Origin: Oscillospiraceae bacterium
Lineage (GTDB): Bacteria; Bacillota; Clostridia; Oscillospirales; Ruminococcaceae
Assembly (NCBI GenBank): GCA_017460955.1
Contig: JAFTZY010000044.1
Location: forward strand, 1 to 46,417
DNA length: 46,417 bases
Direction: 5' to 3'
Shown here: in pieces, positions 2,047-23,065 of the stretch
Layout: every line of letters starts with the position of its first letter
How positions within the stretch are numbered: position 1 is the stretch's first letter
Notes under the pieces: model-generated
Databases searched by the model: none
The model's input: only the letters and a program-made list of their open reading frames with translations
Told to the model about the DNA's origin: nothing
Position numbers and translations under genes: made by a program

Positions 2047-2943
2047 TCAAAAGTCCGTCATGCTGCACAAATCGAGCGCCTCATTTTTAGTGAAGATGCA
2101 GCCCTCCCGGCCGGTCAGCGCCCGCAGATCCGCCGGCAGCGGCGAGCACACGGGATGCACGATCCCCTGCGCATCGGTATAGCACACGGCGGCGCAGTGC
2201 AGGGCATGGCGCCGGATGTCCGTCATATCGCCCCCGTAGAGCTCATCCCCGGCCAGGGGGCAGCCGATGGAGGCCATATGGACGCGGATCTGGTGGGTGC
2301 GTCCCGTTTCGAGGCGCAGGGCGGCAAGCGTATAGCGCTCTCCCCGGGCGAGCACCCGGAAATGTGTGACCGCCCGCTTGCCGTCGGGTGCGATGCAGCG
2401 CTCGATGAGCGACCCCGGAACGCGGCCGATGGGGGCATCCACGGTGCCGCGGTCGGGCGGGGTGCCGCCAAGCACGGCAAGGTAGAGCTTCCGGAGCGCA
2501 CCGGGCAGGCGCGGCACCGCCACCGGATGCAGGGCGGCGGCCACGATGCCGGAGGTGTTCCGGTCGAGCCGGTTCACGGGACGGTAGGTCAGTCCCGGGC
2601 AAAGCGCCGCGAAGGCATTGCCCAGCGTATCCTCCCGGTGGCGGAGGCTCGGATGGGTGGGCATCCCGGCGGGCTTGTCGAGGAGCATCACGTCCGCATC
2701 CTGAAAGAGCACCGGCACCGTTTCCCCGGCGGTCATCCGGGAGGCGTCCTCAAAGCGCAGGACGAGCTCCTCCCCCGGCTGCACGGGGTCGATGCTGCGC
2801 ACGGTCCTGCCGGCGCAGGTGATGCCGTTCTTTGTTGCCTTGAGCCGGCGCAGCTGCCGCTCGGAGATGCCGCAGTCGTGTCTGAGAAATGTCCCCGCCC
2901 GGCACGGCTCGCTCCGGTCCATGATAAAATGCAGCTCGGTCAT
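2047..2943 (-). CDS. RluA-family pseudouridine synthase
   Basis: Converts uridine to pseudouridine in rRNA or tRNA. The product is 298 aa. The family catalytic motif is present as NRLDRNTSG (HRLDxxTSG in most members, with the invariant Asp kept), followed by KLYLAVL and the conserved RTHQIRVHMASIG. An N-terminal S4-like segment (ERQLRRLKATKNGI) precedes the catalytic domain. The start is ATG 2943, preceded by AGGAGG; the frame stays open upstream only because it runs through the structured repeat at 2960-3217. It probably is the last gene of a unit phosphatase - DUF975-like - repeat - this gene. Which RNA position it modifies cannot be read from the sequence. Confidence 0.88.
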   Translation of the reverse strand: MTELHFIMDRSEPCRAGTFLRHDCGISERQLRRLKATKNGITCAGRTVRSIDPVQPGEELVLRFEDASRMTAGETVPVLFQDADVMLLDKPAGMPTHPSLRHREDTLGNAFAALCPGLTYRPVNRLDRNTSGIVAAALHPVAVPRLPGALRKLYLAVLGGTPPDRGTVDAPIGRVPGSLIERCIAPDGKRAVTHFRVLARGERYTLAALRLETGRTHQIRVHMASIGCPLAGDELYGGDMTDIRRHALHCAAVCYTDAQGIVHPVCSPLPADLRALTGREGCIFTKNEALDLCSMTDF

Positions 2944-3046
2944 AATGCCTCCGCCTCCTAAGAACCTGTCTTCCCAAGATACCACGGCAGCTTTTTGGCA
3001 TCTTTGCACCGTGTCTTTGTCCAAAATCCTTGCAAGACACCAAGTA

Positions 3047-3100
3047 CACTCCCCATCGTAAGGGGGAGCGTGCAGACTGCATTTCCGCTGACAGTCTGTA
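3047..3100 (+). repeat. 54-bp two-hairpin unit, forward copy, inside the structured repeat
   Basis: Absent from the second copy of the host repeat, where the flanks join directly. Hairpin 1 pairs CTCCCC with GGGGAG; hairpin 2 pairs CAGACTG with CAGTCTG. It aligns without gaps to the reverse complement of 3132-3185. The loops are conserved and the stems differ by paired changes. GTA occurs on both edges, which could be a short target duplication. Confidence 0.75.
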
Positions 3101-3131
3101 TTGCTGCGGATTTTGGACTGTGACACGGCAC

Positions 3132-3185
3132 GCACAAGCACCAACGGGAATGTGCTTCTGCCGCATCCCCTTACGATGGGATGTG
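3132..3185 (-). repeat. 54-bp two-hairpin unit, inverted copy, inside the structured repeat
   Basis: Reverse complement of the unit at 3047-3100 with about 60% identity. Hairpin 1 pairs CATCCC with GGGATG, hairpin 2 AAGCAC with GTGCTT, in the same register as the other copy. The 14 bases at 3167-3180 are also perfectly complementary to 3052-3065, so a long-range pairing could compete with the two local hairpins. Confidence 0.75.
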
Positions 3186-3192
3186 AATCTGC

Positions 3193-3990
3193 TCAAAAAT
3201 CTGCTCGTGTCCCTTGTGAAGCCATGTTCTGAAAATATTCCCGCATCCGGATCTGCAAAAACACCGTCACATCGCACGCAAGTGCCGGCAGCAGAAAGGG
3301 GATCGTCACCAGCGGCAGTGCGCCCGGCAGATACCACAGGAGGATCCGCAGGAGCTCCCGGCGGTGTCCCCGGAGCATCCGCAGCGCCTCCCGGATGCAG
3401 CGGTGTGCCGGAAGCTCCGGACGGTGCAGCCAGAGCACCGGTACGCCGGCAAGTCCCAGGCACAGCCGCAGGTAGAAGAGCAGCGCCCAGAACGCGCCCG
3501 AAAAGCACTGCACGGCCAGCAGGAGCCGCCATGCATCCTCCCCGCTGCCGCCGCATCCGCGCAGGGCTGCGATGCCGCCCATGCACAGCAGCGCACACGG
3601 CAGGAGCGCAGCCGTCCGCCACAGCCCCGTGAGTGCAAAGCACCACAGCGCCCGCAGGTTCTGCACCGCACCGGAAAAGCACCGCATGGGGCGCTCCTCG
3701 AGGCCGCACAGCGCGGCAAACCAGCCGGCGCTTGCAAGGCCCACGGGAACGAGCACGCACAGCCGCACCGGCTGCCACAGCAGCATGAGGAGCTGCCAGG
3801 TGCGCTCACGCCCGAAAAACAGCGCCTGCGGTGTCACGCGGCCAAGCGAAGCGGCATATACTGCAAGAGCGCCCGGCACGAGCGCGAGCACAAGCGCTGC
3901 CGCCGGGTACCACAGTGCCGATACGAAGGCCGTGCGGTAGTGTCCGTGCAGCGTGCGTCTTGTAAAAGCGTGCAGCTCCCTGAGTTTCAT
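3193..3990 (-). CDS. Multi-spanning membrane protein, DUF975-like
   Basis: A 265-aa integral membrane protein with about five to six hydrophobic segments and many Arg, Cys and Trp residues. The N-terminal pattern (Arg-rich helix, then HGHYRTAFVSALW) and the late motif REALRMLRGHRRELLRILLW resemble DUF975 membrane proteins, whose function is unknown. The start ATG has GAAGGGG upstream. It lies 28 bp after the phosphatase gene and is probably co-transcribed with it. The last eight codons (SQGTRADF) and the stop come from the dispersed repeat, so the natural C-terminus was probably replaced when the repeat arrived. Family assignment is tentative. Confidence 0.7.
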   Translation of the reverse strand: MKLRELHAFTRRTLHGHYRTAFVSALWYPAAALVLALVPGALAVYAASLGRVTPQALFFGRERTWQLLMLLWQPVRLCVLVPVGLASAGWFAALCGLEERPMRCFSGAVQNLRALWCFALTGLWRTAALLPCALLCMGGIAALRGCGGSGEDAWRLLLAVQCFSGAFWALLFYLRLCLGLAGVPVLWLHRPELPAHRCIREALRMLRGHRRELLRILLWYLPGALPLVTIPFLLPALACDVTVFLQIRMREYFQNMASQGTRADF

Positions 3991-14145: not shown

Positions 14146-16248
14146 TCATTCGCCGTGCAGCATCGCAAACAGGAGACGGCGGACCATCGTCAGGTCAATG
14201 ACGTTCACCCGTGCATCCCCGGATACATCCGCAGCTGCATACTCCTTCGGCGTCATCGGCGCTGCGCCGACCAGATACCGCTGGAGATGGATCACATCGC
14301 GCAGCCCAAGCTCACCGTCCCCGTCCAGATCGCCGGGTACTGTGGGCGCTTCAGTCGGTTCGTCCGTGGGAGCCTCGGTCGGTTCGTCCGTGGGTTCCTC
14401 GGTAGGCTCATCGGTCGGAGCCTCAGTCGGTTCATCGGTCGGAGCCTCAGTCGGTTCATCGGTCGGTGCCTCGGTGGGTTCCTCAGTCGGCTCATCAGTC
14501 GGAGCCTCGGTGGGTTCCTCAGTCGGCTCATCAGTCGGAGCCTCGGTGGGTTCCTCAGTCGGCTCATCAGTCGGAGCCTCGGTCGGTTCATCAGTCGGCG
14601 CATCCGTAGGAGCTTCGGTGGGAGCCTCAGTCGGTGCCTCGGTGGGAGCCTCAGTCGGTGCCTCCGTGGGAGCCTCGGTCGGTTCGTCCGTCGGTGCCTC
14701 CGTGGGAGCCTCGGTCGGTTCGTCCGTCGGTGCCTCCGTGGGAGCCTCTGTCGGTTCGTCAGTCGGCGCCTCGGTGGGAGCCTCGGTCGGTTCATCCGTC
14801 GGTGCCTCCGTGGGAGCTTCGGTCGGCGCCTCTGTGGGCTCTTCGGTCGGTTCCTCAGTCGGCGCCTCTGTGGGTTCGTCAGTCGGTTCCTCGGTCGGCA
14901 GCGAGATCAGGCTGCTGACATCGTAGGTGTAAACGGTCACTTCGGTGGAGGGCTTTTCGGACAGCATGTAGTACATCACGCCGTCCTCCACATACATGCC
15001 GTAGATCTTGCCGATCGCCTTCTGCTCCTGCGTCAGGTCGAACAGCCAGATGCTTCCGCCGTCCTTCCACGCATAGACCGATGTCGGCGAGGTGAAGAAC
15101 AGCGTATCGCCCTCGGCGCTGACCACGGTGTAATTGCTCGTGGTGAAGATGGACGAGGGACGTGCGGTGTAGCCCCAGTAATCATCCGTGCGGGTGTTGA
15201 AGCTCTTGGTCATGGCGGCGGTGAAATCATCCCCGATCCCGCACTTGACGAACCACGAGGTCCGCAGGTTCTGGTCACTGACAAGCGATGCGGTCCATGC
15301 ATCCTCATAATAGGGGATCACCGAGATCGTATGCTGCCAGAAGGCATCCTCATACGCCGTGCCGATGTTCAGTGCCGAAACCGGCGTGCCGCAGGCCAGC
15401 TGCCAGTCCGTACCGGTATGGCCCGTGTCCTCAAGCTGTGCGGTCGTTGCCAGGAAATTGGCATGGGAGGCCATCCCGGCATGCTGCTGATAGCTGTCAT
15501 CCCATGTCACATCGACATAGTACCATGCGTCATCGAGCTGCACAGCATTCCATGCATGCCCCATGCTGTCGCTGGTGATCATGATCGCTTCCACGCCGAC
15601 CCGGTGCAAAAGCACCGTATACAGCCAGGCATAGCCCTCGCAGACGGCCTTGTCACGCAGCAGCATGCCATATGCCGTATGCCGCAGTGCCTGCTCGTCA
15701 CTGTCGGTATAGCTGGTGTAATCGTAATTGTAATGCACAGCCATGTACTCATGGAGGTACAGGGCCTTCTCGGTATCCGTCCAGTCGCTGTGAACGCCCG
15801 CTGTGATCGCATCGAGCTGCGCGATCGTATCCGCATACGTCTGCTCGTAATCCTCCGTGACCAGATACGCGATCTGGATGCCGCCGACGCAGCCGAGCTT
15901 CTTGCGGCTCACGGTCGTCCACATGGTGTTTTTCACCGCCAGGATGCCCGCATCCCAGCCGCCGACCACGGCCTGATAAATGGAGAATACGTCCGAACGC
16001 TGGGACTGTGCAATATCCGGCATATCATCGCCGTCGAGCGTGACCGACGTGCGGTGGGCGGCCAGTCCGTCATAGATCGCACCGGCGATCTGTGCAGTCT
16101 CGGCCTCGGTGAAATCACCGACGGCACCCAAGGACGAAAAATCCGGGCGCGTCCCGGCCTGCGCCTGCATCCCTGCGGGCATCTGCAGCAGTGCCATCGC
16201 TGCTGCCAGCACACCGGCTGTCAGCCGTTTCCAATTCTTTCTCATCAT
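14146..16248 (-). CDS. Secreted transglutaminase-like protein with Pro/Thr linker and dockerin
   Basis: A 700-aa exported protein. The signal peptide covers residues 1-30. A transglutaminase-like (papain-fold) domain lies at about 160-260 with a complete triad: Cys203 (AVCEGYAWLY), His231 (GHAWNAVQ) and Asp246 (YYVDVTW). It may be a protease or a cross-linker. Next is a region without a clear family, then about 185 residues of TDEPTEAPTEEP-type repeats, and a C-terminal dockerin (639-700) with two calcium loops, GDLDGDGELG and DVSGDARVNV. The dockerin should dock it on a cohesin carried elsewhere. It is a single gene with its own promoter and terminator. Confidence 0.87.
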   Translation of the reverse strand: MMRKNWKRLTAGVLAAAMALLQMPAGMQAQAGTRPDFSSLGAVGDFTEAETAQIAGAIYDGLAAHRTSVTLDGDDMPDIAQSQRSDVFSIYQAVVGGWDAGILAVKNTMWTTVSRKKLGCVGGIQIAYLVTEDYEQTYADTIAQLDAITAGVHSDWTDTEKALYLHEYMAVHYNYDYTSYTDSDEQALRHTAYGMLLRDKAVCEGYAWLYTVLLHRVGVEAIMITSDSMGHAWNAVQLDDAWYYVDVTWDDSYQQHAGMASHANFLATTAQLEDTGHTGTDWQLACGTPVSALNIGTAYEDAFWQHTISVIPYYEDAWTASLVSDQNLRTSWFVKCGIGDDFTAAMTKSFNTRTDDYWGYTARPSSIFTTSNYTVVSAEGDTLFFTSPTSVYAWKDGGSIWLFDLTQEQKAIGKIYGMYVEDGVMYYMLSEKPSTEVTVYTYDVSSLISLPTEEPTDEPTEAPTEEPTEEPTEAPTEAPTEAPTDEPTEAPTEAPTDEPTEAPTEAPTDEPTEAPTEAPTDEPTEAPTEAPTEAPTEAPTEAPTEAPTDAPTDEPTEAPTDEPTEEPTEAPTDEPTEEPTEAPTDEPTEEPTEAPTDEPTEAPTDEPTEAPTDEPTEEPTDEPTEAPTDEPTEAPTVPGDLDGDGELGLRDVIHLQRYLVGAAPMTPKEYAAADVSGDARVNVIDLTMVRRLLFAMLHGE
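14341..14898 (-). repeat. Coding minisatellite for a Thr-Glu-Pro-Thr linker
   Basis: About 45 tandem 12-bp units encode TDEP, TEAP and TEEP in mixed order. The unit is close to GTCGGTGCCTCS on the plus strand. Near-identical higher-order blocks (for example 14471-14580) suggest growth by slippage or unequal exchange. The length is likely to vary between strains. Confidence 0.85.
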
Positions 16249-16324: not shown

Positions 16325-16656
16325 CAGCTTTTAGTAAAATCGTCGGAATGCACACAAACGGGAGGAAGATTTTGACGAATTGGATTGAAGCATTTTAAGG
16401 TTTTCGCAGGAATTGTCATAACAGGAAATGTCTGGAAAGCAGAGGGTACAAACAAAGAAGCCGCACCGGAATGGTGCAGCTTCTGTAGTGGGCTTGAACA
16501 TGTCAACACAAGGGACGCGAGCAGATTTTTGAGCAGATTTGTGCTGTGTCGAAGTACAAAATCCGCAGCAATACTTGGTGTCTTGCAAGGATTTTGTACA
16601 AAGACACGGTGCAAAGATGCCAAAAAGCTGTCGCGGCATCTTGTGAAGACAGGTTC
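16325..16656. other. Intergenic region: terminator plus structured repeat
   Basis: The gene-free stretch between the transglutaminase-dockerin promoter and mscL. It holds the mscL terminator hairpin at 16450-16483 and the second copy of the dispersed repeat at 16505-16659. From 16325 to 16450 I see nothing specific. Confidence 0.5.
16450..16483 (-). terminator. Terminator downstream of mscL
   Basis: GAAGCTGCACCATT pairs imperfectly with CCGGTGCGGCTTC and is followed on the minus strand by TTTGTTTG. It is 170 bp from the mscL stop because the repeat lies between them, as if the repeat had inserted between gene and terminator. Confidence 0.7.
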
Positions 16657-16659
16657 TTA
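16505..16659. repeat. Dispersed structured repeat, copy 2 (short form)
   Basis: A 155-bp match, in reverse orientation, to 2960-3217 without its two 54-bp blocks. CTGTGTC + GTACAAAATCC (16544-16564) pairs with GGATTTTGTAC + GACACGG (16589-16609). A second hairpin pairs AAGATGCC (16614-16621) with GGCATCTT (16635-16642). GAGCAGATT occurs twice near 16520-16540. It begins on the mscL stop codon itself (TAAGAACCTG on the minus strand) and ends before the mscL terminator. Confidence 0.85.
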
Positions 16660-17136
16660 CTTCTTCTCGTTGTTCTCCTTGAGCAGGTCGCGGATCTCTG
16701 TCAGAAGGAGCTCCTCCTTGGTGGGCTCCGGCGGAGCTTCCTCAGCCTCCTCTTCCTTCTTCTTGCCCAGGGTCAGGGCCTTGTTGGTGGCCTTGATGAT
16801 GAGGAACAGGATGAAGGCGATGATCAGGAAATTGACAACAGCGGAGATGAACGCACCGTAGGTGAATTCCACGCCGCCCACACTCCAGGAGCCTGCGGAG
16901 ACGATGATCTGTCCGGTCTCCGGATCCTTCTGTGCGCCGCCGGTCACAAGCCCGATGAGCGGATTGATGAAGCTGTCGGTCAGTGCGGTCACGATGTTAC
17001 CGAACGCAGCACCGATGATGACACCGACTGCCATATCCACCACATTGCCCTTGAGTGCGAATTCCTTGAATTCCTTCAGAAAACCGCCTGCTTTTTCTGC
17101 TGCAGCGCCTGCTACATTTTTTTCTTCGTTTGCCAT
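16657..17136 (-). CDS. mscL: Large-conductance mechanosensitive channel
   Basis: Opens under membrane tension to release solutes on osmotic downshock. The product is 159 aa. Two membrane helices are seen: the first in VVDMAVGVIIGAAFGNIV with the family signature, the second in FISAVVNFLIIAFILFLIIK. The cytoplasmic tail is long and charged (KKKEEEAEEAPPEPTKEELL) and ends with the C-terminal helix LLTEIRDLL. AGGAGG precedes the ATG. It follows the zinc-ribbon gene by 85 bp and may be co-transcribed with it. Its stop codon coincides with the edge of the dispersed repeat. Confidence 0.96.
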   Translation of the reverse strand: MANEEKNVAGAAAEKAGGFLKEFKEFALKGNVVDMAVGVIIGAAFGNIVTALTDSFINPLIGLVTGGAQKDPETGQIIVSAGSWSVGGVEFTYGAFISAVVNFLIIAFILFLIIKATNKALTLGKKKEEEAEEAPPEPTKEELLLTEIRDLLKENNEKK

Positions 17137-22928: not shown

Positions 22929-23034
22929 TGTGATCCTCATCTCTCGGGTATACCGCAGGATTTAGCACCATCGGTGCAGTTCGCACCAGGTTGCCGGGCT
23001 TCACAGGACCTGTTCCTCAGCCACTCTTGATAAG
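22929..23034 (-). promoter_or_regulatory. SAM-I (S-box) riboswitch aptamer
   Basis: Read on the minus strand: CTTATCAAGAGTGG, CTGAGGGA, CCTGTGAAGCCCGGCAACC, then the GGTGC/GCACC arm, GGTGCTAAATCCTGC and GATGAGGA. These are the conserved S-box elements in order. SAM binding should favour the downstream terminator and stop metK transcription. Confidence 0.96.
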
Positions 23035-23065
23035 GTTGTATTCATGAGTTATGCCGCTGTATCCT

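Follow-up and report, generated by a model that had tools for sequence, protein, structure and literature searches.

Two 54 nt blocks in the window, the 46,417 nt stretch of DNA analysed here, are best explained as copies of one small two-hairpin DNA module nested in a hairpin-shaped copy of a non-autonomous transposon; as a whole this explanation is given a probability of about 0.6. The host is a MITE-like element of 161 bp whose insertion target is TNA, duplicated as 3 bp, and under this explanation it is held by selection to a long imperfect hairpin. The module would have entered repeats of one lineage at least three times, at the MITE apex, at a MITE stem junction and in the hairpin of another repeat, and would later have spread partly as its hosts were copied or recombined.

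The window is contig 16 (C16) of a 2.48 Mb draft genome of a gut or rumen bacterium, in 84 contigs and ~91 % complete. Three covariance models are referred to: R1, made from five units; R3, made from seven units; and R2, made from 15 compact copies of the host. The unit of copy C33 is included in the unit models, and copy C33 is not in R2.

Features of the window and further unit copies of the same genome
Feature	Position	Strand	Evidence
RNA pseudouridylate synthase gene, minus-strand neighbour downstream of the host	2050..2943	-	PF00849, E 5.8e-24
Host, MITE-like palindrome with both units	2962..3229	-	R2 match, E 2.8e-19; alignment with 10 other copies
Unit 1, block of two hairpins within the host's apical loop	3047..3100	+	R1 and R3 matches; site empty in other copies
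Unit 2, homologous block of two hairpins, inverted relative to unit 1, within one strand of the host's stem	3132..3185	-	R1 and R3 matches; also in copy C49
Upstream ORF without Pfam match (E <= 0.001)	3193..3990	-	ORF coordinates
Compact 161 bp host copy without units	16496..16656	+	R2 match
MscL gene, ORF	16657-17136		PF01741, E 3.2e-43
Unit copy C37	C37:25628-25681		R1 match, E 2.5e-9
Unit copy C43	C43:49425-49478		R1 match, E 9.4e-6

The two blocks and their fold

Both blocks were confirmed where the preliminary description had placed them (3047–3100 and 3132–3185). One had been called the reverse complement of the other; homology in inverted orientation stands, but identity in the ungapped inverted alignment is 31 of 54 positions rather than full. 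None of 5000 dinucleotide shuffles reached 31 identities, the largest value being 26. The shared letters are chiefly those of the loops CCATCGTAAGG and CATTYCCGYTG, and the stems differ in pairs. By eye, the window host copy without 3047–3100 equals the compact copy at 16496–16656 at that point, whereas without 3132–3185 it is one T shorter than the compact copy there.

Each block forms a two-hairpin fold (z −3.9 and −2.5). In the five-unit alignment 91.1 % of cells pair and 10 of the 18 stem pairs have changed on both sides, changes that are not ten independent events because they fall mostly on one split, unit 1 type versus unit 2 type. The seven-unit alignment has 88.8 % of cells paired and both-sided change in 12 of 18 pairs. 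When the structure was slid, by up to 3 columns in the five-unit case, both alignments gave 0–3 such pairs. The compensatory stem changes noticed earlier, put then at five or more, are borne out by these counts. At one stem position an A-C mismatch is retained in 5 of the 6 units with letters on both sides. Folded by themselves, the C37 unit reaches z −2.16 and the C43 unit does no better than shuffles (z −0.66, 52/200).

The unit is about 51 nt long plus flank. Inspection of the 51 nt unit found no terminal inverted repeats, its ends (CAC... and ...TCT or ...CTT) being non-complementary. The flanking 3-mers, also by inspection, are GTA on both sides of unit 1, GCA/GCA at C37 and, at another offset, TAC/TAC at C43, and unit 2 is without a clean flanking duplication; GTA and GCA hint at duplications, but as they are also paired within stems they could be stem complements instead. 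The 5′ flanks of the units are alike (GTAC, GCAC, TTAC). An origin as a degraded piece of a protein-coding element, raised in the preliminary description, drew no support from a reading of all six frames, in which each block has a stop in one frame and none looks gene-like, a length of 54 nt saying little here and being too short to decide.

Occurrence of the unit and of other inserts

A search of the genome with R1 returned its own five units and two further places, C37 and C43, whose units were therefore detected first by a model not containing them. With R3, seven units were found in the window’s genome (E 5e-20 to 2e-15), and the next best match across 38 genus genomes had an E of 0.048. 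As the R3 search scored 149 of the 636 first-look candidates in the window’s genome, the count of seven is a minimum, and there might be copies that are not within repeats. Five of the seven units are in MITE copies, either in the apical loop or at one stem junction, and two are in a different type of repeat.

Unit 1 is present in 3 of the 11 host copies of the genome (C16 at 3 kb, C48 and C33) and unit 2 in 2 of them (C16 at 3 kb and C49). Each occurs without its partner: unit 1 is alone in C48 and accompanied by another insert in C33, and unit 2 is alone in C49. Found in such different subsets of the host copies, units 1 and 2 come and go separately; the presence of unit 1 in three MITEs and of unit 2 in two may in each case reflect one event copied with the host. 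The covariance search proposed in the preliminary description as a check on whether units are single or host-bound found them singly as well as in the inverted pair of the window, with two outside the MITE host.

The C37 unit splits the apex of a hairpin, with GGTCGCTCGCCGCA before it and GCAAGCGGCGAAATC after it, and the empty form of this hairpin is present at seven loci, six in the window’s genome and one in the genus genome G011. The C43 unit lies in a related composite repeat, of which only the right flank clearly resembles the C37 hairpin and whose host hairpin is less clear. No similarity was noticed between the repeat carrying these two units and the MITE host.

Several weaker candidates were set aside. 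R1 gave 11 further matches (E 0.003 to 0.1) in the window’s genome and other genus genomes, which were taken as chance; the stretches round four of them were fetched (L156 to L159). Over 297 family genomes R1 matched the window’s genome and gave two weak hits (G164 and G108), and since 19 candidates were scored per genome, absence of the unit elsewhere in the family is weak evidence. These two hits, and one of 13 viral-contig loci with the unit pattern, reached 18–24 bits with R3 and were likewise taken as chance.

Other sequences are also inserted in the host. A different insert lies a few bases at most from the unit 2 site in C8 (L108 / L432) and C33 (L431), and a third kind occurs in the 3′ strand of the host in C8 and in the G011 copy (L170). 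Folded alone, the C33 and G011 inserts reach z −4.2 and −3.7, and both of those in C8 about −1.9. In another genome (G020; L173, around 1501–1730) a GACTT-ended MITE sits inside the apical loop of a GAGCC-ended MITE. The host fold seems to tolerate additional sequence at a few points. On C32 of the window’s genome (L068, 1424–1723) a MITE copy itself interrupts one loop of an FMN riboswitch aptamer, and the Rfam model still matches across it. A common repeat (L142–L148) forms the hairpin GGTCGC(TCGCCGCAGCGA)GCGAAATC, with the variant GGTCGCCGCTCGCAAGCGGCGAAATC, and has paired stem changes.

Ends, target and gene neighbourhood of the host

BLAST of 2955–3235 against the window’s genome returned 24 pieces, grouped into 11 copies, 7 of them in the compact 161 bp form. 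The host has terminal inverted repeats, its ends pairing in compact copies. These ends are mostly GAACCTG, GAACATG or GAGCCTG, paired with ACAGGTTC or ACAGGCTC. Three end types were recognised in the window’s genome, one of which begins GACTTACTCGG; other ends, still paired, are found in other genera (GGGCGTG in G306, GAAGTTG in G065). On the minus strand the host in the window runs from GAACATGG to CAGGTTC and is flanked by TCA (3230–3232) and TTA (2959–2961), both of the form TNA and non-identical, as are the TTA and TCA flanks of L002 (by eye).

The flanking 3-mers are identical in 35 of 57 host rows, and 34 of those 35 are TNA; two rows (L381 and L419) are one place, and counted over distinct rows the figures become 34 of 56 identical and 33 TNA. 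These rows leave out L003 and took 28 of the 40 loci of one fetched set and 11 of the 19 loci L375–L393, the omitted loci having other lengths or places or being repeats of a copy. Clear 3 bp duplications flank young host copies of other genomes. Dispersed near-identical copies number nine each in G039 and G071, nine being the number of candidates scored, with equal scores in 9 of 9 and 8 of 9, respectively.

TNA covers TAA, TGA and their reverse complements, and because stops on either strand are thereby included some host copies abut gene ends. For 12 of the 57 rows, an open frame of 90 codons or more has the flanking triplet as its stop. In the window, the right end of the compact copy adjoins the mscL stop (TTA on the + strand, 16657–16659). 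The host carrying both units ends 18 nt ahead of the ATG of the pseudouridine synthase gene (start chosen by eye), and the frame of the upstream ORF enters this host and stops within it. A promoter/terminator scan of 2900–3300 found none. Elsewhere the window holds a SAM riboswitch (22934–23036, minus strand; Rfam RF00162) and an ORF (14146–16248, minus strand) that contains a long EPTEAPTDEPTEAPT-like repeat and, judged by eye, ends like a dockerin.

Spread and covariation of the host

Own genome counted, R2 matched 15 of the 38 genus genomes at E <= 0.01. At E <= 1e-4, with nine candidates scored per genome, its matches across the family cover 66 of 297 genomes and 34 of 126 genera, own genome again counted. 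In the window’s genome it gave 35 matches, both strands counted and more divergent copies included. Most of the family matches listed are 158–164 nt long, and many of the genus matches listed are shorter or core-only. Most of the copies fetched, from eight other genera and two own-genome loci, have ends of the same kind and the same fold. The fetched named records that R2 matches include an Oscillospiraceae MAG (RGIG1574), one MAG of Ruminococcus flavefaciens and uncultured Ruminococcus.

RNAalifold on the 15 compact copies gave 55 pairs, 23 of them changed on both sides. In a sequence-only alignment of 31 diverse copies, 43 of the 54 pairs predicted on both strands have at least two Watson-Crick types. 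On the canonical strand of these 31 copies G-U cells outnumber A-C cells by 78 to 43, and in 46 copies aligned to the model by 99 to 30; in the first 15 copies the counts are 16 and 15 for pairs shared by the strands and 80 and 39 for the union. Judged from these alignments, RNA-level selection on the host fold is likely; it is graded no higher because G-U and A-C are about equal in the shared pairs of the first 15. Among the unpaired features kept in most host copies are GA steps that oppose each other and, close to the apex, a GCA/AA inner loop.

Rfam gave no match over 2940–3250 up to an E of 1, and no credible match to the unit or the host in the window and other copies. The one Rfam hit on an element, in the L377 host copy, was to a plant microRNA family; it scored 29 bits where the cut-off is 245 and is not credible.

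Searches for transposases and carriers

Y1_Tnp (PF01797) has no match in the window’s genome (91 % complete), so that the nearby TnpA/RAYT-type transposase looked for after the preliminary description did not materialize. Two of the 38 genus genomes, namely G030 and G016, do have a PF01797 match. R3 gave no unit match at E <= 0.1 in either, although in G016 R1 had given a 19-bit match at 0.025. PF01609 has no match in 7 of the 8 draft genus genomes tested, the window’s own among the seven. A search for an autonomous partner with one end type in 8 draft genomes, in which 12 loci were inspected, recognised no transposon.

The window element was not found in phages and plasmids, nor was the host copy L395, from another genus, found in plasmids. 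L395 matches 11 records without annotation that are titled ‘Bacteriophage sp.’ and come from human stool; they may be phage or bacterial, and five of them, when inspected, held whole or cut copies, and no partner transposon was seen. An 18-base core pattern was found in named genomes in at least 113 stretches, many probably by chance. R2, applied to 24 of the 80 stretches listed and to 38 viral loci, gave 8 loci at E <= 0.01, all from named Clostridia and none viral. A scan of viral contigs for host ends gave three loci (viewed by eye). A 107 bp form of the host with its middle part missing is present in a record called phage (L438, MT835732.1). In literature on MITEs, palindromic repeats and structured RNA in Ruminococcus or Faecalibacterium, and on TNA/IS5 MITEs, covering few subscription papers, the element was not described.

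Discussion

The module is separable: it occurs without its partner and is present in two kinds of repeat. The preliminary description had suggested a small mobile hairpin unit or a paired RNA module; a separable hairpin module, which may be either of these, is upheld, and the link to TnpA/RAYT is not. Short hairpin units without inverted ends are typical of REP/RAYT and IS200/IS605-derived hairpins. The two hairpins of the unit, the absence of inverted ends, the sites in hairpin loops and the alike 5′ flanks would all suit a mobile hairpin that moves as a single strand (HUH/Y1), like those of REP, PATE or IS200/IS605, and inserts in exposed loops. Unlike those systems, however, the unit is in a genome (91 % complete) where no Y1 transposase was found, and the 2 of 38 genus genomes that have one are without an R3 unit. 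With no Y1/RAYT transposase found in the draft genome the REP-like route is unsupported, and it is judged very improbable.

Ribosomal RNA and ribozymes gain and lose hairpins in their loops, and the host might similarly be a structured RNA with helical expansion segments, the unit being shared by recombination and not itself mobile. At least three kinds of insert at about three places in one host fold fit this, as do the strong covariation of the host stem (43 of 54 pairs with at least two Watson-Crick types) and the canonical-strand excess of G-U over A-C (78 v 43 and 99 v 30). However, the unit is also in a repeat without noticed similarity to the host, and it is present in both orientations; G-U and A-C are equal in the shared pairs of the first 15 copies (16 v 15), and, of the four other inserts, two have only a weak fold by themselves (z about −1.9). 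Such an account is possible, if somewhat unlikely. That the unit occurs in both orientations on one host strand also speaks against a role for it as a strand-specific RNA. The paired changes could also have arisen without selection on a fold, by template switching at quasi-palindromes during replication, long hairpins being substrates for this kind of stem repair. Paired changes with loops kept are what it would leave, but repair would remove the A-C mismatch kept in 5 of 6 units, as well as the GA steps and the GCA/AA inner loop kept in most host copies, and template switching is considered improbable as the source.

A nested module remains preferred. Points against it include the small number of events (three or four), a unit for which neither a partner transposase nor terminal inverted repeats were found, the missing clean duplication at unit 2 and a C43 copy that folds no better than shuffles. 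The module probably moved as DNA, and it would survive at apical loops and junctions since an insert at such points does not disturb host pairing. A more specific form, in which the ~51 nt unit targets exposed loops of extruded DNA hairpins and the host hairpin is kept as RNA or cruciform across ~34 genera, would be a new nested mobile DNA; it is put forward as rather doubtful.

Among known systems, Correia/NEMIS elements of Neisseria are small palindromic MITEs with target site duplication that form an RNA hairpin, and a 50 bp inner sequence sets their long form, of 155 bp, apart from the short one, of 107 bp (PMC2229807). Like them, the host is a palindromic MITE with target site duplication and an inner piece present or absent. 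Unlike Correia, the inner piece here consists of two hairpins and is found in two orientations, at two host sites and in a second type of repeat. ERIC of enterobacteria is a palindromic intergenic MITE that has an effect on the transcript when inserted at the 3′ end of a Yersinia gene, and MITE transcripts fold and influence mRNAs (PMC10969869). Like ERIC, the host is a palindromic MITE, and it differs in its ends and its TNA target. ERIC variants with inner inserts also exist. IS5-type MITEs are a class with a TNA target, and the host resembles them in its 3 bp TNA duplication and GAGCCTGT-like ends; unlike them, it occurs in a genus where 7 of the 8 genomes tested have no PF01609 match. Given the long and short Correia forms and folding MITE transcripts, an inner insert that comes and goes is of a kind already known. 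As far as the searches tell, what is new is that a two-hairpin module is nested in hosts of two kinds and that the host structure is widely conserved.

MITE-like elements are often seen as worn remnants of insertion sequences. The host family varies little in length and fold between genera, which would be unusual for MITEs. A simple reason for such repeats to sit on stop codons is that the TNA duplication rebuilds a TAA or TGA stop. The nested units, together with other inserts near these points, are a natural experiment that could show where the hairpin has to remain unbroken.
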